Positions 3,840-13,114 of a DNA stretch of 39,124 bases are shown here, piece by piece. Source of the DNA: an uncultured Pseudomonadota bacterium. Lineage in GTDB: Bacteria; Pseudomonadota; Gammaproteobacteria; Steroidobacterales; Steroidobacteraceae. Every line of letters starts with the position of its first letter. Within the stretch, counting starts at the first letter, position 1. Position numbers and translations under genes: made by a program. The stretch is from contig CAIOHZ010000081.1 of the NCBI GenBank assembly GCA_903858165.1, positions 1 to 39,124 on the forward strand, given 5' to 3'. The notes beneath the pieces were generated by a model. The model made no database searches. It saw only the letters and a program-made list of their open reading frames with translations, and was not told where the DNA came from.

Positions 3840-4145
3840 ATGGCGTTTCGTCTGGATGCCAATCACGTCTGGCTGGGAATCGGGTTTCTGGGGCAGGCAC
3901 TGTTTTCCGCGCGCTTCATCGTGCAGTGGATTGCCAGCGAGCGCGAAAAGCGCAGTGTCATTCCGCACCTGTTCTGGTGGTTCAGCCTCGGTGGCGGCAT
4001 GACCTTGCTGTTCTACGCCATCTATCGTGGCGACCCCGTGTTCATTCTCGGGCAGGCAACCGGTCTCATCGTCTATTTGCGCAACCTCTACTTCGTCTTG
4101 CGTGAGGCGAAGGCCAAGCGCGCGGAGGCTGGAGCCGCCCCTTGA
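3840..4145 (+). CDS. Small LABN-domain membrane protein
   Basis: A 101-residue protein matching the lipid-A-disaccharide-synthase N-terminal domain (LAB_N), here stand-alone without LpxB. Three hydrophobic helices are visible (about 9-28, 43-62 and 65-86). Family hallmarks are FSARFIVQWIASE, IPHLFWWFSLGGG, the DPVFILGQ segment and a C-terminal IVYLRNLYF. The ATG at 3840 is preferred over upstream starts because GGAAGAGG sits at good spacing before it and it follows the GT2 stop by one base. Its own stop overlaps the TTG start of the next gene. The biochemical role of stand-alone LABN proteins is not clear to me. Position between a polyprenyl-phosphate glycosyltransferase and a GT39 enzyme suggests it helps handle or flip the lipid-linked sugar (inference). 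Confidence 0.88.
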   Translation: MAFRLDANHVWLGIGFLGQALFSARFIVQWIASEREKRSVIPHLFWWFSLGGGMTLLFYAIYRGDPVFILGQATGLIVYLRNLYFVLREAKAKRAEAGAAP

Positions 4146-5878
4146 GCCCATGGCGACTGTCTTGGCGCGACCTCGTCTGGCTGCTGTTGCTGGCGGCGGT
4201 CGTCCTTGGGGCGGGTTTGGGATGGCGGGAACCGTGGCCCGCGGACGAGCCTCGTTTTGCTCTTATCGCGCGCGACATGGCGCAGGGCGCCTCTTGGTGG
4301 GTGCCGCATATTGGCGGCGACCTTTACCAAGACAAGCCGCCGCTGTTTTTCTGGGCCATCGCGGTAGGCTATCTCGCCACGGGCTCACTGCAGGTCGCTT
4401 TCCTGCTGCCGTCATTTCTCGCCGGCTTGCTTGCCGTCGGGCTGGTGTGGGATCTCGCCTACCGCTTGTGGTCACGGACCGTGGCAATGCATGCGGCGCT
4501 GCTGTTGCTCGCCACCGTGCAGTTCCTGCTGCAGGCGCGGGCGGCGCAAATCGACGGCTTCTTGTTGGTCCTCACAGTGCTGTCTGTGTACGGCTTGGCG
4601 CGTCACCTGCTGTTGGGACCGGCGTGGGGTTGGTACGCCGTTGCGGGGTTGTCCGCAGGCCTTGGCGTGGCCACCAAAGGCGTTGGCTTCCTGCCGCTGC
4701 TGCTGCTGTTGCCGTGGTGGGGCTTGGCGCGTGCCGGCTTTGCCTTGCCGGTCATCGGGGGCGGATGGCGTTGGGCTTGGGCACCGTTGGGTCTGCTCTT
4801 GGGTATTGCCATCTGGTTGGTGCCGATGCTGGTGGTGGTCGCCCAATCCCACGACCCCGCCTATGTCGCCTACCGAGATGAAATCCTGTTCCAGCAAACG
4901 GTGCAGCGCTACGCGCATGCTTGGCATCATCAGGCACCACCGTGGTTTTTTTTGGTGCATGTCATTCCGTGGCTCTGGTTGCCTGGCACCTTGCTGCTGC
5001 CTTGGGTGCTAGGGCTGAAGGGCCTGCGCTCAGTTGGCGAGGCTGCCGAGACGTGGCAAGACCATTGGCGCCTGCGCGACCCCCGTGCTTTGCTGTTTCT
5101 AGGTTGGGTGCTGCTGGTAGTGCTGTTCTTCTCGCTGTCCGCGGGCAAGCGGGGCGTGTATGTGCTGCAGGCTGTCCCCGCGTTCGTGTTGTCCTTGGCG
5201 CCTTTTTTGCCACGCCTGTTGGCGCGGCGCGGCGTTCAGTGGCTGTTCGCCAGTCTTCTGGGGGCCGTCGCCGTCGCTCTGGCCGGCGCGGTGGCGTGGT
5301 TCGCCACCATGGGGGCGCCGCTGTGGGACAGATTGGGCCAGGATAACGGGCTGAAGGCCTCCGCCGAACTGCTCGCCCCCCTCGCTACCATCGCGGCTGT
5401 CGCTGCGCTGGCGCTAGCGGTTGGCCGCTTGCGTCGCGCGCCCGTCGCCATGGCCGTGACCCTGTGGGGTGCCCTGGTGGTGCAAGGATTTTGGATCAAT
5501 CCGATGTTGGACGCGTCGCGTTCGGGCGCGGCCTTCATGCGGCAGGTAGAGGCTGCCGTGCCCATCGGTACGACGCTTGGTTTGGTCAACTATCGCGAAC
5601 AGTTCTTGTTGCAGGCCAGTCGCCCGGTGGTGAATTTTGGGCATCGCCGTTGGCGCGAGGGTCAGCAGGAGGTTTACGAGGCCTCGGCTTGGCTGTCTGC
5701 TGGCAGTGCCAACGCACCACGGGCGCTGCTGGTGGAGGGGGCCCTGCTGGCTGAGTGCTTTGCTACCGCCCAGCGCCGTTGGGTGGCGCGGGCTAGTCGC
5801 CAGTCTTGGTATCTGGTGACGGGCGTTGCGTCGCCGACCTGTGTGGCCCGGGGCGCCACGGGTCGCCTCGCCCGTTAG
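4142..5878 (+). CDS. GT39 (ArnT/PMT-like) integral membrane glycosyltransferase
   Basis: A 578-residue polytopic protein with about a dozen hydrophobic segments, of the ArnT/protein O-mannosyltransferase fold that transfers sugars from polyprenyl-phosphate donors outside the cytoplasmic membrane. The first periplasmic loop has the family's acidic motif in WREPWPADEPRFALIARDM (about 28-46; the DE pair is the expected catalytic/metal site), followed by LYQDKPPLFFW, matching the ArnT 'KPP' region. The TTG start overlaps the LABN stop (TTGA); the nearby ATG at 4150 is out of frame. The acceptor could be lipid A, another envelope glycan or protein. The operon lacks arnA/arnB-type genes for aminoarabinose, so polymyxin-type modification should not be assumed. 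Confidence 0.88.
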   Translation: MSPWRLSWRDLVWLLLLAAVVLGAGLGWREPWPADEPRFALIARDMAQGASWWVPHIGGDLYQDKPPLFFWAIAVGYLATGSLQVAFLLPSFLAGLLAVGLVWDLAYRLWSRTVAMHAALLLLATVQFLLQARAAQIDGFLLVLTVLSVYGLARHLLLGPAWGWYAVAGLSAGLGVATKGVGFLPLLLLLPWWGLARAGFALPVIGGGWRWAWAPLGLLLGIAIWLVPMLVVVAQSHDPAYVAYRDEILFQQTVQRYAHAWHHQAPPWFFLVHVIPWLWLPGTLLLPWVLGLKGLRSVGEAAETWQDHWRLRDPRALLFLGWVLLVVLFFSLSAGKRGVYVLQAVPAFVLSLAPFLPRLLARRGVQWLFASLLGAVAVALAGAVAWFATMGAPLWDRLGQDNGLKASAELLAPLATIAAVAALALAVGRLRRAPVAMAVTLWGALVVQGFWINPMLDASRSGAAFMRQVEAAVPIGTTLGLVNYREQFLLQASRPVVNFGHRRWREGQQEVYEASAWLSAGSANAPRALLVEGALLAECFATAQRRWVARASRQSWYLVTGVASPTCVARGATGRLAR

Positions 5879-5998
5879 GCCAGGAAATTGCCGCCGACCG
5901 AAGAGTGTAAGTCGCTGTTTTGCGACGTGGTTCTACGACATACCCCGGGGGGGTTCAAGCATCATTGCACCACTATCACTCACAATTTGTGGTGTCCC

Positions 5999-7114
5999 GT
6001 GCATCTTATTCACAGCGCGTTTCCCGAAGCCGTTCTGGCTCCCGTTCAGCCGACGCGTTTGGCGGAAGCCAAGCACGCTTTCACCACGCGCCGCTGTGAC
6101 CTCGACGATGCTCGTTACGTCGTGACCGGAGGGCTGGCTCCTTTGGCCGGCGATCTCGTGCTCGCGCGAGTGGAAAAGCTCGGGCAACATCCTGCTTTGC
6201 AGACCACGGCAGGGCGTCGTGCCACGTTGTTTCCTGGCGATGAAATCGTCGTGGTCTTCGGTAACCGATACGCTCCTGACCAGTTCGAGGCCGTGGTGCC
6301 TGCCGACCTCGGGCGTTGTCAGTTGGTAGCGGGCGGGGGCGTTGCGGCCAAGGTCCTGTCGGCCCACAGCAAGATGAAGCAGCCGACCCAGCTCGAGCCC
6401 ATTGGCTTGCTGGCGGACGTCAACGGCAAGGTTTTGAATTTGCGTGACTACGCGCTGCCCAAACTGGCCTCGCCGCCGCGCCGTCCGGTCACCATTGGTG
6501 TCGTCGGCACCGCCATGAACGCCGGCAAGACCACGACGGCCGCCCACCTCGTTCGCGGGCTGCGCGCTGCCGGGCTCAAGGTCGGTGCAGCGAAGGTGAC
6601 GGGGACAGGTGCTGGTGGCGACACTTGGCTCATGCGTGATGCGGGCGCCACCACGGTGCTCGATTTCACGGACGCCGGTTTTGCTTCCACCTACAAAGTC
6701 TCGCTGCCTGAACTGTGTGACGGCATCGATCGCATTTTGGACCAACTCGTTGCCAGCGGCACGGAAGTGGTGGTCCTGGAAGTGGCGGATGGATTGCTGC
6801 AGGCGGAAACTGCGGCAGTGCTCGATTGTCCTCAGGCCAGCACTTACTTCAATGCCCTGGTGTTTGCCGCCCAAGACGCCATGGGTGCGGCCGCCGGTGT
6901 GGACTGGTTGGAGCAGCGTGGGTTGCGTGTCGAGGCGGTCACCGGTTTGCTCACCGCTGCACCGCTTGCCAGCCGTGAAGCCGCAGAAGCCACCGGTCTG
7001 CCGGTGTTGGGCCTTGCCGCCCTCGGCGGGGCCAAGGCCGCGCGCGACCTGTACGCCGCCGCTCGCCAAGTCCATGATGCCGCCCTCGCCGTGGAAGCGG
7101 GCTGCGCGGCCTGA
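5999..7114 (+). CDS. DUF1611-like P-loop NTPase
   Basis: A protein of about 371 residues with a P-loop in GVVGTAMNAGKTTTAAHLV (about 166-184), followed by the KVTGTGAGGDTWLMRDAG and VLDFTDAGFASTY segments that I associate with DUF1611-type P-loop proteins, related in fold to MobB/BioD. An N-terminal domain of about 150 residues precedes it. The frame extends upstream to a TTG at 5888, but those 37 codons (rich in His, Cys and Thr) do not look coding; the GTG at 5999 is preferred although no clear ribosome-binding site precedes it. The stop overlaps the next ATG (TGATG). Some DUF1611 proteins are linked to D-amino-acid or dipeptide metabolism, but no such enzyme is adjacent, so the function is unassigned. 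Confidence 0.75.
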   Translation: MHLIHSAFPEAVLAPVQPTRLAEAKHAFTTRRCDLDDARYVVTGGLAPLAGDLVLARVEKLGQHPALQTTAGRRATLFPGDEIVVVFGNRYAPDQFEAVVPADLGRCQLVAGGGVAAKVLSAHSKMKQPTQLEPIGLLADVNGKVLNLRDYALPKLASPPRRPVTIGVVGTAMNAGKTTTAAHLVRGLRAAGLKVGAAKVTGTGAGGDTWLMRDAGATTVLDFTDAGFASTYKVSLPELCDGIDRILDQLVASGTEVVVLEVADGLLQAETAAVLDCPQASTYFNALVFAAQDAMGAAAGVDWLEQRGLRVEAVTGLLTAAPLASREAAEATGLPVLGLAALGGAKAARDLYAAARQVHDAALAVEAGCAA

Positions 7115-8178
7115 TGCAACTTCCCCTCCCCAATGGCGGTCCCCGCCGGAACTGGTTCATTCAATTGACGCTGCTGGCCTGTGCCGAACTCGGCGCCTTG
7201 TTTGGTCTGGCATTGGGCATTCGACACGCGTTCGATGCGGTGTTGGTAGGTGGGCCGGTGGCGGTTCAACAGTTGGGTTTCAGCTGGTTGGTTTGGGGTT
7301 TGGCCCTCGTTCTGGTGTCCGCCGTTGCTCGTGCCAGGCAGCGCCCGCTGGGTGAGAGTTTTGGGCAACACTACGCGCGCCGCGTCCGTTCGCGGGTATT
7401 GCGCTGTTGGTTGTCTGCCGATACCGAAGGCAACGACAAGGCAATTCCAGCCGTGTCCCCGTCTCCTGAAGCGGAGCCCGATACGGCGGGCCGTGGCTCC
7501 CTGCTGGTGCGTTTGCTAGGCGATACCACGGCGCTCTCCCGGTGGCATGGTCGCGTCAAGGCGCGTTCCTTTGCGAACCTGACGGCCTTGCTGGTGGTTA
7601 CCGTGGCGCTGGCTATCGTTGCTTGGCCATTGGCTTTGGCCGCGATGGGGCCGTTATTGTTCGGCTTGGCCGCCCAATGGTGGGTAGGCCTGCAGTTGGA
7701 AGCCCGTGCCGCCCATGCTCGTCAGCAACGTGCGCGCATGGCAGCTAGCGTGGCGCGCACCCTGGATGCCGGTTCCGGAAACTCCGCTGACGTAGATAAC
7801 CGCGCCGTGAAAAACCTCGATCGCCGTGGGCGCAAGCTCAGCACTGGCATGGTTGACGCGGCGCGAGCCAGTGGTGCCTTGGAGGGACTGGGAATGCTGA
7901 TGACCGGTGGCGCGTTGGTGGCGACGCTGGCAGTGGGTACCTACTTGGTTGGTAATGCTCAGGCCTCTGCCGGTACCGTGTTACTGGCTGCGCTCTGGGT
8001 GGGCCAGTCATCCCGTCCTATCCACGAACTGGCCCGCGCCCAAGATGCGTGGCGTCGTGCCCGCGTCAGCGAACGTAACCTGTCACGTTTTTTGGCTCGT
8101 GGTCGCGGTACTTCCGGCGGCCGTAAAAAGGGTGCGCCGAGGCGCCGCAAGGAGCCTCGTACCGAGGGACAGTCGTGA
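7114..8178 (+). CDS. ABC-exporter-type transmembrane domain protein lacking an ATPase domain
   Basis: A 354-residue protein resembling the membrane half of an ABC exporter. Hydrophobic segments occur at about 15-40, 50-72, 150-170, 172-190, 263-285 and 288-302. Between them are features of ABC type-1 exporters, such as GSLLVRLLGDTTALSRWHGR in the first long cytoplasmic region and ASAGTVLLAALWVGQSSRPI near the last helix. There is no Walker A, ABC signature or Walker B, and the protein ends in a basic Arg/Lys/Gly-rich tail. Start and stop overlap both neighbours. It may pair with an ATPase encoded elsewhere or be a repurposed scaffold. The upstream DUF1611 P-loop protein is not of the ABC class, so it is not an obvious replacement. 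Confidence 0.75.
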   Translation: MQLPLPNGGPRRNWFIQLTLLACAELGALFGLALGIRHAFDAVLVGGPVAVQQLGFSWLVWGLALVLVSAVARARQRPLGESFGQHYARRVRSRVLRCWLSADTEGNDKAIPAVSPSPEAEPDTAGRGSLLVRLLGDTTALSRWHGRVKARSFANLTALLVVTVALAIVAWPLALAAMGPLLFGLAAQWWVGLQLEARAAHARQQRARMAASVARTLDAGSGNSADVDNRAVKNLDRRGRKLSTGMVDAARASGALEGLGMLMTGGALVATLAVGTYLVGNAQASAGTVLLAALWVGQSSRPIHELARAQDAWRRARVSERNLSRFLARGRGTSGGRKKGAPRRRKEPRTEGQS

Positions 8179-9014
8179 CAATCCATGCTGACGCCCTGCC
8201 GCTCGAGGTGCCCCGCGGGCGGGTCGTGCTGCGGGTGCTGCCGGGGCAGTCTGGTGGCAAGTGCTATGTCTATCTGCCACGGCAATGGCAACCTGGGGGC
8301 CCGGTATTGGCTGCCATCCATGGCATCTCGCGAAACGCCCGCGAGCAGGCCCTTTTGTTCGCTGGCTGGGCGGAACGGCATGGTTTCGCGGTTATCGCGC
8401 CACTGTTCTCTCGCGAGAACTATCGCGACTATCAGCGGCTTGGCATTGAGGCGCGCGGCCAGCGGGCCGACCGCTTCTTCATTCGGGTACTGGAAGCGTT
8501 TGCCGACTGGGCTGGTGCGCCTATAGAGCGCGTGAACCTGTTCGGGTATTCGGGAGGTGGTCAGTTCGCACATCGTTTTGCCTTGCTTCACCCGGGGCGT
8601 GTTGCGGGGCTGGCGCTCGGGGCGCCGGGTTGGTACACGCTGCCCGATGAAAGTCGCGCTTTCCCGCTCGGCATTGCCGAGTTCCCGGAAGAGATTACGC
8701 CTGACCTAGCTGCCTGGCTGGTCTTGCCGATGATTGTGCTGGTGGGTAGTGAAGACAACCAACGCGACCCGGCGTTGCGGCAATCGGCACGACTCGATCG
8801 TTTGCAGGGGTTGACCCGTATCGAACGCGGCCAGCGGTTCATCGCCTTCACTGCGGCCACCGCGCACAAGCGCGGACTGACGCCGCGGCTGGAATTCACC
8901 TTACTGCCCGGGGTTGGGCATAGCTTCGAGGCAGCCATGACGGCTGGCGGGTTGCCTGAAAAAATACTGACTTTTTTGGGCCTGCAGGCCCTTTCGGTTA
9001 CTGGAGACTGCTGA
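8175..9014 (+). CDS. Alpha/beta hydrolase
   Basis: A 279-residue serine hydrolase of the alpha/beta fold. The likely catalytic triad is visible: nucleophile S126 in GYSGGG, acid D194 in LVGSEDNQRD and H249 in PGVGHSFE. The oxyanion-hole strand is LAAIHGISRNAREQ (about 45-58). No signal peptide is present, so it should be cytoplasmic. The GTG start overlaps the upstream stop (GTGA) and the stop overlaps the porin ATG. The closest general resemblance is to esterase/PHB-depolymerase-like or peptidase-like hydrolases acting on small molecules, but the substrate cannot be named. Co-translation with a porin and a transporter-like membrane protein suggests action on an imported or exported compound (inference). 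Confidence 0.85.
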   Translation: MTIHADALPLEVPRGRVVLRVLPGQSGGKCYVYLPRQWQPGGPVLAAIHGISRNAREQALLFAGWAERHGFAVIAPLFSRENYRDYQRLGIEARGQRADRFFIRVLEAFADWAGAPIERVNLFGYSGGGQFAHRFALLHPGRVAGLALGAPGWYTLPDESRAFPLGIAEFPEEITPDLAAWLVLPMIVLVGSEDNQRDPALRQSARLDRLQGLTRIERGQRFIAFTAATAHKRGLTPRLEFTLLPGVGHSFEAAMTAGGLPEKILTFLGLQALSVTGDC

Positions 9015-10240
9015 TGTTGTCGAATTCTCTCGTGCGGTTCGCCCGCTGTTCGTTAGTCGCCCGTGCGGGCGTTTCCAGTGCCGTGGTACTTGCGCTGTCG
9101 CTGGCAGCCCCGGCCGCGGAAGCGGCCAATCCCAAGTCGGGCTTCGACTTCGACCCAGAGTCGGGTTTGACCTTGCGCTTTGGCGATGGCCGCAAGGCAG
9201 CCAAACTGATTCTCGACGGCCGTATCCACGCCGACTACGCCCAGTATTCCGGTGATGGGGCCACGCTCAACGACGGCTTCCTGTTGCGCCGCGCGCGCCC
9301 GGCACTGGCACTGGACCTCGGTGATTGGAAGATTAAGGGCGAGTACGAATTCAGCCCCCGCTCGAAGGGCATCCGTCAGGCTTGGGTAGATTACTCAGGC
9401 TTCAAGCGTACCTCGCTGCGCTTGGGTAATCAGCCGACCAGCTTCGGCTTTGAGGCTTCCGGTTCGTCCAACGACAATCCTTTCATGGAGCGTTCGGTGG
9501 CGTCGGTATTGGCCCCCGGCATCATGCTCGGTCTCACCATGCGCAAATGGGACGACCGCTGGAACGTGACGCTAGGTGCGCACACCAACGACATTTCTGA
9601 CGATGAACAGCGTGGACTCGATGGTCGTGGCGTAACGCTGCGGGTGGTGGGCCAGCCTTACAAGGCGCGCCGTACGCGCCTGCATGTCGGTGCTTCGATG
9701 GAAGTACGTGACGCAAACGCCGTCGGTTCCCTTCGTTACCGTATCCGTCCGGAATCGAATGTCGATGGCGGACGCTTGGTAGATACGGGGGTAATTAACG
9801 GGGTGGACGGCTTGGTCACCGCTGCGGTCGAGGCTGCCTGGCAGCGCGGCCCTTTGCTATTGAGCGCCGAGTATCTGCAGTCGCGCGTTGCGACGGCCAC
9901 CGGGCCGGACCTTGAATTCAGCGGTTGGGAGACGACGGCGTCGTACTTTCTGACGGGTGAGCGCCGCGAGTATTCCGAAGCGATGGGTTCGTTCGGGGCA
10001 GTCGACCCGCGCCGCAAATGGGGTGCTGTGGAGTTGAAGGCGCGCCTGAGCGAAGTCGATTTGAGCGACGGTGGTTTCAATGGTGGCATGGAGCGAAATG
10101 AGGCGTTCGGCGTGAACTGGTGGTATTCCGCGAAGATTCGCGTGTTGGCAGAGTACCTCCGCGTGCATGCCAAGCCCGATGCCAACGGTTTTGTCCAAGA
10201 CCCTACCGTCGCCCAGGTGCGTCTGCAGGTGGCTTTCTAG
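9014..10240 (+). CDS. OprO/OprP-like porin
   Basis: A 408-residue outer-membrane beta-barrel protein of the phosphate-selective porin O/P family. It has a signal peptide (hydrophobic stretch about 21-33, likely cleavage after AEA at residue 37) and ends in phenylalanine (LQVAF), the usual barrel-assembly signal. Family features are DGFLLRRARPALALDLGDWK (about 88-107), a typical early OprP segment, alternating aromatic/hydrophobic strands and the C-terminal VNWWYSAKIRVLAEY region. It is the last gene of a four-gene overlapping run. Many members of this family are not phosphate-specific, so the solute is open; a link to the upstream hydrolase substrate is plausible. Confidence 0.88.
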   Translation: MLSNSLVRFARCSLVARAGVSSAVVLALSLAAPAAEAANPKSGFDFDPESGLTLRFGDGRKAAKLILDGRIHADYAQYSGDGATLNDGFLLRRARPALALDLGDWKIKGEYEFSPRSKGIRQAWVDYSGFKRTSLRLGNQPTSFGFEASGSSNDNPFMERSVASVLAPGIMLGLTMRKWDDRWNVTLGAHTNDISDDEQRGLDGRGVTLRVVGQPYKARRTRLHVGASMEVRDANAVGSLRYRIRPESNVDGGRLVDTGVINGVDGLVTAAVEAAWQRGPLLLSAEYLQSRVATATGPDLEFSGWETTASYFLTGERREYSEAMGSFGAVDPRRKWGAVELKARLSEVDLSDGGFNGGMERNEAFGVNWWYSAKIRVLAEYLRVHAKPDANGFVQDPTVAQVRLQVAF

Positions 10241-10292
10241 GTCCATCCCTCTGGACGGCTGGGTGGGGAATTATTTTCCTTAAATAACAGTC

Positions 10293-10313
10293 GTCTAGGT
10301 TGATTTTCTAGAC
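10293..10313 (+). promoter_or_regulatory. Inverted repeat in the leader of the GGDEF/EAL gene
   Basis: GTCTAG (10293-10298) and CTAGAC (10308-10313) form a perfect 6-bp inverted repeat around a 9-base AT-rich centre, 11 bases before the larger hairpin. It could be an RNA hairpin or a protein-binding dyad. TTGATT at 10300-10305, inside its centre, could serve as a -35 element. Confidence 0.4.
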
Positions 10314-10323
10314 AGAGGTGACA

Positions 10324-10372
10324 CAATGCTTCCCAAGTAGCTGCCGTGAAAGGCAGCAAAGGGGAAGCGTTG
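10324..10372 (+). promoter_or_regulatory. Long two-part hairpin enclosing the ribosome-binding site of the GGDEF/EAL gene
   Basis: Bases 10324-10334 pair with 10362-10372 over 11 bp (one G-U). An internal loop (AAGTA on the left, AAAG on the right) separates this from a perfect 6-bp stem, 10340-10345 with 10352-10357, capped by GTGAAA. The only good ribosome-binding sequence, AAAGGGGAAG, lies in the right internal loop and outer stem, and the TTG at 10370 lies at the stem base. The fold would therefore hide the translation signals. The sequence does not fit my memory of the GEMM-I c-di-GMP riboswitch consensus. A structural role is strongly suggested by the pairing; ligand sensing is speculation. 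Confidence 0.5.
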
Positions 10373-13114
10373 AGCGTGGTCTATCGCGATCCTGCACTGC
10401 AGGGAGCCTTTGTCGGGAGCGCCACTGGCCTTCCCGAGGGCCGCGATTTCACTGCTTCCGACCTTCTGTCCCCGCAACTCTGGGACCGCCGCGCCGGCTT
10501 GGCGCCACTCGGCATAGACGTTTCCTGCACCAAGATCGCCATCGACTTCCAGTCGCTGCAGGCCGCTACGGCCGAGGCCGTCCTGCAGCAAAGTATTGAA
10601 ATCCTTCGCGAATCGACGCGGGCGGACGCTACCTTCATTGCCTTGTACGACGCGACGGCGGCGCGTGTCGAACGCGTGGTGGCAGCCAAGGCACACTTCA
10701 CGGGGGCGGCGCCGGAAAGCCTCACGGGCGTGCCAATGGACAGCCTGCCGTGGATTCGTGAGCGTCTTGGCCACAGTCGTCTGCTGGAAATCCGCGACAC
10801 CCTGCAGGCCCGCAATGACCTCGCTGGCGAAGCTCTGGTCTTTGGCGAACGGGGTTTGCGCGCGGTATTGGTGGTGGGCTTTGCGGTGCGTGGCCGGCCG
10901 GCCGGCTTCATCGGGCTGGGAACGGCCATGCCGGTGGAAGGTTGGGATGTCTCCTTCCACCTGCTCCTCAAATTGGTGGGCATCAGCCTCGGGACGGGCC
11001 TGGACCGCGTGGCACTTGCCCGCGACCACGAGGTGCTGCGGGAACGCACGGCACTGGTGGACAGTTGCGCCAATGATGGCGTCTGGGAATACGATGCGCA
11101 GACGCAGGAAACCTACTTCAGCGCCCGCTGGAAAGCCATGTTGGGTTATGGGCTCAGCGATCTAGATGGACGAGGGCCCGGTTGGAAGCAGTTGGTGCAC
11201 CCTGAAGATTTGCCTTTGCTGTCACAGCAGATTCGTGACCACGTTTCCGGACAAACGGGGCCGGTGCGCAGCCTGCATCGACTGCGTCATCAGGACGGCG
11301 ACTGGCGTTGGGTAGAGAGCCGCCTCCGTGCGCAACTGGATGCTGGGGGTGCTCTGCGGCGTTTGGTCGCTGTCGAATTCGATGTCACCGAGCGTAAGCG
11401 CTATGAAGAAGCGCTGTTCCGTGAAAAAGAAAATGCGCAGGTGACGTTGCACAGTATGGGTGATGGTGTCATTACCGCCGACCGGCACGGGCAGGTGGAA
11501 TACCTGAACCCCGTTGCTGAAGCGCTCACTGGTTGGCACTTGCCCGAGGCGCTCGGTCGTGACATCGGCGAGGTGTTCCGTACCTTCCACGAGGAAACTT
11601 GCGAGGCGCTCGAAAATCCCTTGCTGGCGTCCGTGCGCCAACAGCAGTCGGTAAAGGCTTTGCGGCCTACTTTGCTGGTACGTCGCGACGGCAATGAACT
11701 CTATGTGCAGAGCACGGCAGCACCAAGGCGCAGTGGTGCGGGCGAGGTGGTAGGCGGTGTGCTCGTCTTCCACGACGTGACCGAAGCGCGTGAACTGCAG
11801 CGACGCCTGACCTACCACGCCAGTCATGACGTGCTGACCGGCTTGCCGAACCGACGCGAGTTCGAGCAACGCTTGGAACGTGCCTTGAAGTCGGCCCATG
11901 CGGGTGAGGGCAGTTATGCATTGCTCCATCTGGATCTGGACCAGTTCCGCATCGTGAACGATACCTGCGGCCACAACGCGGGCGATGCGCTGTTGGGTCA
12001 ACTGGGCACGCTGCTGAAAGGCAAAGTCCGTTGGCGCGATGCTTTGGCTCGGTTGGGTGGTGATGAATTTGCGGTCCTGCTGGAACACTGCGCAGTGGAT
12101 GAGGCCTTGCGCCTCGCTGATGGCCTGCGCGAAGCAGTCCGCGGCTTCCGGTTCGTTTGGGGTGAGCGTTCCTTCCGCCTCGGAGCGAGCATCGGCTTGG
12201 TCACCCTCAACGCCGAGACGCCCGATGTAGCCGCAGCGCTGTCTGCTGCCGATGGCGCCTGCAATGCGGCGAAGGAAGCCGGTCGCAACCGGGTCCATTG
12301 CTTCGAGGAAAACGATCTTGATCTGATGCGACGCCGTCGCGAGATGCAGTGGGCGGCGCGTATCAACGCCGCGCTTGAGGAAGGGCGCTTCGAGTTGCAC
12401 CGGCAGACCATCATGTCGCTGCAGGCTCCAGAAGTGGGCAGTCATTTCGAACTGCTCATCCGCATGCGCGACGAGCAGGGTAAGTTGGTGCCGCCGGATC
12501 ATTTCATTGCTGCGGCGGAACGCTATAACCTCATGCCGGCCATCGATCGCTGGGTGGTGGAGAATGCCTTTCGCTGGTTGGTTTCGGCGGCGGATGAACG
12601 CGCGGGTCTTGCCATGTGCGCCATCAATCTTTCCGGCCAAAGCATGGGCGATGACCAATTCCTGCCGTTCGTCATCCAGCAATTCCGCACCAGTGGCTTG
12701 GATGCCTCGAAGATTTGCTTCGAGATTACCGAGACCTCCGCTATCGCCAATTTCTCGCAGGCCAGTCGGTTCATTCAGGCGTTGCATGGTCTTGGCTGCA
12801 AGTTCGCGCTGGACGACTTCGGCACTGGCTTGTCGTCCTTCGGTTACCTGAAGCACTTCCCCGTCGATTTCTTGAAGATCGATGGCAGCTTCGTGAAGGA
12901 CCTAGTGAATGATTCCGTCGACCGCGAAATGGTGCGGTCCATCAATGAAATTGGTCATCTGACTGGCAAGAAGACCATCGCCGAGTATGCGGAGAGCGAG
13001 GAGATCATCACCTTGCTGCGGGCGCTCGGTGTGGACTATGCGCAGGGCTATGGGGTGGCCATGCCCGAGAGACTGACCATGACGGGCGAAGGCTGGGCCA
13101 GCCGAGAGGCTTGA
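10370..13114 (+). CDS. GAF-PAS-PAS-GGDEF-EAL cyclic-di-GMP signalling protein
   Basis: A protein of about 914 residues. Domain order from this start is GAF-like sensor (about 50-210), PAS with PAC (about 225-345), second PAS (about 350-475), GGDEF (about 480-650) and EAL (about 660-905). The cyclase motif RLGGDEF is intact and is preceded by an RxxD product-inhibition site (RWRD). In the phosphodiesterase domain EAL reads ELL, but the expected metal and catalytic positions remain: INLS, EITET, LDDFGTGLSS, LKID, an AEYAE glutamate and QGYG. Both activities are therefore possible. No membrane helices or signal peptide are seen. The frame is open to a GTG at 10346, but that codon lies in a hairpin loop without a ribosome-binding site; TTG 10370 or GTG 10376 is more likely. 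Confidence 0.93.
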   Translation: MSVVYRDPALQGAFVGSATGLPEGRDFTASDLLSPQLWDRRAGLAPLGIDVSCTKIAIDFQSLQAATAEAVLQQSIEILRESTRADATFIALYDATAARVERVVAAKAHFTGAAPESLTGVPMDSLPWIRERLGHSRLLEIRDTLQARNDLAGEALVFGERGLRAVLVVGFAVRGRPAGFIGLGTAMPVEGWDVSFHLLLKLVGISLGTGLDRVALARDHEVLRERTALVDSCANDGVWEYDAQTQETYFSARWKAMLGYGLSDLDGRGPGWKQLVHPEDLPLLSQQIRDHVSGQTGPVRSLHRLRHQDGDWRWVESRLRAQLDAGGALRRLVAVEFDVTERKRYEEALFREKENAQVTLHSMGDGVITADRHGQVEYLNPVAEALTGWHLPEALGRDIGEVFRTFHEETCEALENPLLASVRQQQSVKALRPTLLVRRDGNELYVQSTAAPRRSGAGEVVGGVLVFHDVTEARELQRRLTYHASHDVLTGLPNRREFEQRLERALKSAHAGEGSYALLHLDLDQFRIVNDTCGHNAGDALLGQLGTLLKGKVRWRDALARLGGDEFAVLLEHCAVDEALRLADGLREAVRGFRFVWGERSFRLGASIGLVTLNAETPDVAAALSAADGACNAAKEAGRNRVHCFEENDLDLMRRRREMQWAARINAALEEGRFELHRQTIMSLQAPEVGSHFELLIRMRDEQGKLVPPDHFIAAAERYNLMPAIDRWVVENAFRWLVSAADERAGLAMCAINLSGQSMGDDQFLPFVIQQFRTSGLDASKICFEITETSAIANFSQASRFIQALHGLGCKFALDDFGTGLSSFGYLKHFPVDFLKIDGSFVKDLVNDSVDREMVRSINEIGHLTGKKTIAEYAESEEIITLLRALGVDYAQGYGVAMPERLTMTGEGWASREA

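Follow-up and report, generated by a model that had tools for sequence, protein, structure and literature searches.

The c-di-GMP riboswitches GEMM-I and GEMM-II sit ahead of c-di-GMP genes, and the insertion elements IS10 and IS50 are protected from incoming transcripts by a fold-back similar to those described below. The passages on gene e (lysozyme) in a review of phage T4 report that the 5' strand of an inhibitory helix, which buries the Shine-Dalgarno (SD) sequence and start codon, is specified by late promoters, and that lysozyme output from the longer early RNA is 100-fold lower; the structure was demonstrated and the 5' ends were mapped (PMC3014915). The part of the IS200 literature that deals with transposase describes stem-loops that lower its expression, one occluding the ribosome site and another terminating impinging transcripts (PMC3196728).

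Here we analyse a hairpin in the window, by which we mean the whole 39,124-nt stretch of contig CAIOHZ010000081.1 from an uncultured member of the Steroidobacteraceae. The hairpin shares with GEMM-I and GEMM-II its position ahead of a c-di-GMP gene and differs from them in being a single imperfect hairpin with a variable loop and no covariance-model match. The closer likeness is to T4 gene e as the passages cited portray it: a promoter directly upstream of the ribosome site supplies the 5' strand of the helix, leaving promoter-proximal transcripts free and longer ones blocked, which is what we infer for the present locus (PMC3014915). Gene e is a phage gene with a late promoter, whereas here a chromosomal c-di-GMP gene would be served by a sigma70-like extended -10 promoter recognised from sequence only. 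With IS200, as that part of its literature presents it, the locus has in common a stem-loop that would occlude the ribosome site and may lower expression (PMC3196728); however, IS200 is a mobile element, and a scan of three intergenic regions at the present locus and in its congeners showed no terminating stem.

The hairpin and the gene behind it

The first-pass annotation had proposed a structured leader that can hide the translation start of a c-di-GMP enzyme and thereby switch translation, and the geometry that it described was recovered in full (Table 1). The outer stem has 11 pairs, including one T-G, between CAATGCTTCCC and GGGAAGCGTTG. It encloses a 6-bp inner stem (10340-10345 with 10352-10357) closed by the loop GTGAAA (10346-10351), and the ribosome-binding sequence AAAGGGGAAG (10358-10367) and the TTG at 10370-10372 lie in the 3' side. 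The small inverted repeat just upstream, GTCTAG (10293-10298) with CTAGAC (10308-10313), is also present; it retains 6/6 pairs in the congener G001 (one now G-T), 2/6 in G002 and 4/6 in G003.

Table 1. Features of the locus in window coordinates
Feature	Position	Strand	Remarks
Co-directional upstream porin gene (Porin_O_P)	9014..10240	+	Possible source of read-through
Conserved block abutting the -35 box upstream; possible regulator site	10287..10299	+	Family consensus ACAGnnnCTTAGC; window ACAGTCGTCTAGG
Small inverted repeat	10293..10313	+	Within -35 region and spacer; partly lost in G002 and G003
Predicted -35 box TTGATT	10300..10305	+	Family consensus TTGTAT
Predicted extended -10 (TGA + CACAAT)	10319..10327	+	16-bp spacer between -35 and -10 hexamers
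Outer stem, 5' arm	10324..10334	+	Final four bases of the predicted -10 and the discriminator
Discriminator GCTTCCC	10328..10334	+	Joins CAAT in the outer stem's 5' arm
Predicted transcription start	10335..10335	+	A10335 or A10336; A commonest at both columns (43/82, 56/82)
Inner 6-bp hairpin	10340..10357	+	Close to the predicted 5' end of the normal mRNA, which retains it
Shine-Dalgarno sequence AAGGGGA	10359..10365	+	
Outer stem, 3' arm	10362..10372	+	Part of the SD plus TTG start
PAS-PAS-GGDEF-EAL protein	10370..13114	+	TTG start; in-frame alternatives GTG 10376 and GTG 10346

The region 10280-10400 (121 nt) has a minimum free energy of -47.7 kcal/mol, whereas its shuffles average -31.4 (z -4.56; 0/200 as good), and both SD and start codon are buried in this fold. 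The native 49-mer reaches -30.2 kcal/mol, a stability matched by none of 2000 sequences in which the 5' part was shuffled and SD and start were kept, and again by none of 2000 in which CAATG was kept too. The number of SD and start bases paired upstream was equalled by 121/2000 shuffles of the first kind and by 583/2000 of the second. The stability of the hairpin is therefore exceptional, the extent of SD and start occlusion less so; between a C-rich discriminator and a G-rich SD, the shuffles show, substantial pairing arises by chance.

The downstream gene is, as the annotation had it, of the GGDEF/EAL type: the open reading frame in frame with the TTG encodes a PAS-PAS-GGDEF-EAL protein. Its best NCBIfam match, over residues 220-904, is PRK09776 (E. 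coli DgcE/YegE). The score of 635 bits lies below the model's cut-off of 1135, and by NCBI's rule the protein is not a member. Automatic start choice selected GTG 10376 in the window and, in G003, an ATG that precedes the TTG by 6 nt. We retain TTG, with some uncertainty, because of its spacing from the SD, and set it by hand for the four congeners in the pairing controls and openness calculations below.

A promoter-like block upstream of the orthologs

An ortholog is present in all four genomes of the genus (G000-G003, the source genome included) and in 99/120 sampled family genomes (E<=1e-200). From at least 586 matches in named genome contigs, 80 ortholog loci were kept. The pooled set comprised 110 loci with the window's own, 99 of them with distinct upstream DNA. 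These were searched with a promoter pattern of TTG, 15-17 bases and T[GA]nnAnAAT, which itself fixes TTG, T, A and AAT. The extended -10 pattern (TTG-N16-TGnnAnAAT) lies upstream in 83/99 distinct sequences, with identical spacing in all but one (82/83), locus L058 being one base longer. Among the 16 loci without it, two have 5-7 nt of upstream DNA (L033, L044), three are near matches (L068, L043, L071), three retain the -10 but differ in the -35 region (L011, L013, L107), and for eight the profile score gives no convincing match (L015, L046-L051, L059), L015 retaining the -35 half.

Conservation in the 82 loci of equal spacing extends to positions outside the search pattern. The columns 12 and 11 nt before the -35 box are C in 80/82 and A in 75/82, TTA stands 5-3 nt before it in 79/82, 82/82 and 81/82, and one spacer column is T in 82/82. 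The second base of TGn, where the pattern allows G or A, is G in 82/82. Beyond the last base of the -10, strong conservation gives way to a preference for A at the predicted start. Extended -10 promoters of the sigma70 type combine a TTG-type -35, TGn ahead of the -10 and A plus AAT within it. All of these, together with a fixed spacer and conservation among orthologs, are found here. In contrast to that consensus, the T at the first base of the -10 is replaced (C or G in 81/82), and conservation flanks the -35 and enters the spacer.

A profile (R1), built from sequence alone on 65 of the 82 loci, found one site in the source genome at E<=10. The pattern returned this same site and no other, so that neither search gave any sign of a promoter regulon in that genome. 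Across the family, R1 matched 83/120 genomes with 85 matches (E<=0.1), about one per genome, and 73/85 of these share the ortholog's strand and precede it by 0-500 nt. Of the rest, nine are strong and fall in genomes that yielded no ortholog or carry it on another contig, and three are weak and lie elsewhere. In a class-wide sample, R1 matched 4/274 genomes (E<=0.001). Two belong to the genus; the third is a relative at order level, with the site ahead of a protein of 52% identity; the fourth site had no such protein in the 3 kb inspected. A simple consensus scan missed the promoter (8/12 matches against 9 required) and reported a minus-strand site at 10297-10270 instead. Our literature search retrieved no report on the promoter of Steroidobacter GGDEF genes or on the 13-base consensus string. 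We infer that the block probably acts as a promoter dedicated to the GGDEF/EAL gene.

The distances to the start codons bear on where the mRNA begins. In 17/82 loci the start codon picked automatically (16 ATG, 1 GTG) follows the -10 box by 8-13 nt, with similar N-termini in the main group (MTNPSDT...), and these near-leaderless loci put the 5' end near the predicted +1. Starts picked in this way give leaders of 96-125 nt in 40/82 loci, 9-95 nt in 23/82, the four congeners among them, and 192-194 nt in two; with the TTG start, the genus leader is 35-37 nt long. Because leader lengths vary so much among the 82 loci, the promoter appears to be conserved while the leader is not. As in T4 gene e, the predicted promoter sequence encodes the outer 5' arm. 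The arm consists of the end of the -10 box and the discriminator, and the normal mRNA should therefore lack it while retaining the inner hairpin, SD and start. The transcription start is thus predicted to fall inside the stem, a position that the first-pass annotation had itself named as speaking against its proposal. The hairpin as leader of the normal mRNA is not supported, since its 5' arm coincides with part of a predicted promoter, the -10 box and discriminator, and that promoter is conserved well beyond the hairpin.

The stem in the genus and the genes upstream

Comparison of relatives, which the annotation had recommended, gave a divided answer: within the genus the outer stem is kept with some compensatory changes, but outside it the pairing is absent. 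All 11 outer pairs form in 4/4 congeners, with a one-base bulge in G003. Pair 330/366 (last three digits of the positions) varies among T-A, A-T and G-T, and compensatory changes occur at 330/366 and 342/355. The inner stem is intact in three congeners and has two broken pairs in G003 under the gap placement chosen. Over both helices, 97.1% of cells are paired, against 27-51% when the helices are slid, and two pairs show double changes. The observed paired percentage and covariation score were reached by 12/500 shuffles, the two double-sided changes by 345/500 and the further pair types by 287/500. Simulations that mutated the same columns gave a chance of 0.02-0.15 of leaving no outer pair broken, and random columns 0.0003-0.006 (0 broken pairs observed against 1.6-4.5 expected). 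For both stems, with at most the two broken pairs observed, the corresponding values were 0.005-0.10 and 0.0000-0.001. The genus sample is four genomes, two of them nearly identical, and thus amounts to effectively three independent sequences, so that the conservation of the stem is suggestive, not decisive.

The pairing between promoter segment and SD-start region was equalled in G000, G001 and G002 by 1/40 swapped and 0/40 shuffled segments, whereas in G003 it was not above controls (6/40 swaps, 13/40 shuffles). The family-wide test covered 62/82 loci, 20 with predicted leaders of <20 or >130 nt having been dropped. In the 58 loci outside the genus, pairing was not above that of swapped segments (mean 1.70 against 1.48), and 8/58 reached >=5. 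The promoter block thus appears to be conserved far more deeply than the hairpin.

An upstream gene runs in the same direction in 4/4 congeners and ends 35-81 nt before the -35 box. It is a porin gene in G000 and G001 and, in G002 and G003, a homologue of the window's 4142-5878 protein. No terminator-like site was found on the + strand between upstream gene and promoter in G000, G002 and G003, the three scanned. The SD and start are predicted to be buried in RNA carrying both arms in all four genus genomes, which bears out the annotation's hidden start for such RNA, but not for the predicted normal mRNA, from which the 5' arm is absent. Predicted mean openness of SD and start in G000/G001 is 0.25 in read-through RNA against 0.55-0.66 in normal RNA. 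For G002 it is 0.26 against 0.34-0.49, and for G003 0.29-0.30 against 0.31-0.36, a slight gain. Burial of the gene e type, limited to the long RNA, is thus predicted for G000 and G001, partially for G002 and hardly for G003.

The best reading is a real hairpin whose context had been misread: a promoter whose -10 box and discriminator can fold onto the ribosome site in read-through RNA. The gene's own promoter would start the normal mRNA near A10335, inside the stem, so that this mRNA carries just the small inner hairpin ahead of SD and start. Formation of the full hairpin would be confined to longer RNA entering from the co-directional upstream genes, in which the copy of the -10 and discriminator would pair with the SD and TTG and reduce translation. 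Output of the GGDEF/EAL gene would thus be tied to its own promoter. We put forward this arrangement, a dedicated promoter with a hairpin that silences the start in read-through RNA alone, as in T4 gene e, as a tentative proposal whose chances we rate a little short of even.

Almost as likely is that the promoter is real and the full hairpin functionless: the discriminator, rich in C, and the SD, rich in G and about 27 nt away, would pair by chance, and kinship would preserve the pairing. The 583/2000 shuffles that equal the native SD and start pairing agree with this by-product, as do the absence of pairing outside the genus, the controls in G003 and the small openness effect predicted there. 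Pairing was likewise not significantly linked to the orientation of the upstream gene (33 co-directional against 24 other loci, p 0.15, with orientation taken from the longest upstream ORF, a rough method). Against it stand the native stability, matched by 0/2000 shuffles, the compensatory changes and the outer stem without a broken pair.

Regulator and switch readings

The conserved block may instead, or in addition, bind a dedicated regulator of transcription at a site that overlaps the -35, with a leader that plays no regulatory part; this is compatible with either reading of the hairpin. Near-invariance begins 12 nt ahead of the -35 and continues to the tenth base counted from the -35 start, a stretch that exceeds the needs of a -35 box, and the block occurs about once per genome. 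But its dyad symmetry is weak, and we regard a regulator site as possible, though on the doubtful side. A broader proposal, which we think similarly unlikely, is that the promoter of about 40 bp, present about once per genome at Steroidobacteraceae and Woeseiaceae loci, forms a single-target circuit for the PAS-PAS-GGDEF-EAL enzyme. In the genus, its -10 and discriminator would double as an anti-Shine-Dalgarno sequence, and promoter choice alone would decide translatability.

The switch of the first-pass annotation, a structured leader of the normal mRNA responding to a nucleotide or to temperature, has in its favour the burial of SD and start in the folded 121-nt region, the stem kept in the genus and a gene for both c-di-GMP synthesis and breakdown domains. 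The annotation had also remarked that the element does not fit GEMM-I, and in this it was right: the Rfam covariance search, GEMM-I and GEMM-II included, gave no match in the window. At the gathering thresholds the leader matches no family, and at E<=10 its neighbourhood yields three chance-level matches to eukaryotic families and no GEMM. The leaders of 17 relative loci had no match either, the one hit being a tRNA elsewhere in L021. A riboswitch or thermometer finds no support in these searches. Not all thermometers are in Rfam; about -30 kcal/mol over 49 nt is very stable for a thermometer, which speaks against one. Hairpin loops differ among the congeners (GTGAAA, GCGAAA, ACTCAA and another loop in G003). 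CsrA recognises the motif ANGGA, and no such site was found in the leader of 4/4 congeners. With its 5' arm in the -10 box and discriminator, no pairing outside the genus, and relatives whose leaders are almost absent or of other length and sequence, a nucleotide or temperature switch is very improbable.

For the discovery of leader RNAs, the locus is a caution: a stable hairpin with compensatory changes may have one arm in a promoter and be absent from the normal mRNA. If silencing of read-through RNA is true, a signalling enzyme that lies behind a co-directional operon, without a terminator between them, would still be under its own promoter. Of more general bearing is the conserved promoter, found about once per genome, which offers a practical way to search for the regulator behind this c-di-GMP enzyme.

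Leader length and content among orthologs

The distance from the predicted promoter to the gene for the c-di-GMP enzyme (GGDEF/EAL) was compared across the 82 ortholog loci that carry the promoter pattern at identical spacing. Predicted leaders were 96–125 nt long in 40 of them. At 17 loci (including L060, L061, L062, L066, L069, L076, L079 and L081), the predicted start codon lies 8–13 nt past the -10 box, and the Shine-Dalgarno sequence is weak or absent in most of these 17. The predicted start codons point to a near-leaderless mRNA for the enzyme at these loci.

By-eye comparison of the longer leaders showed that 11 loci (L007, L008, L009, L014, L017, L018, L019, L024, L025, L074 and L080) share a segment in variant forms, one example being GTGTGACGCATTCGG. 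This segment may be a separate conserved element of the longer leaders; an Rfam scan of the leaders of eight of these 11 loci returned no match.

One pooled locus, L002 (CALQLF020000003.1), has a gene with 95% identity to the one in the window. Its record is titled Candidatus Planktophila lacus, which looks like a misnaming.

Genomic context in congeners

Four co-directional genes at 5888-10240 were found in the window's own genome (G000) and in its congener G001, where the first gene is truncated at the contig end. The block is missing between the same neighbours in congeners G002 and G003.

The predicted promoter/operator block and its flank

Predicted sites upstream of the GGDEF/EAL gene
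Feature	Position	Strand	Occurrence elsewhere
Weak sigma70-like site with AATAAT	10270-10297	minus	also found in G002
Predicted promoter/operator, ~40 bp	10287-10327	+	equivalent sites in 82 loci

Within the region of the opposite-strand site, the plus-strand ATTATT is retained in all four congeners; the site possibly serves the forward promoter as an A+T-rich upstream element. The promoter/operator itself occurs at approximately one copy per genome. Sequence conservation that reaches beyond the -35 box suggests that a dedicated regulator acts on the promoter of this c-di-GMP enzyme.
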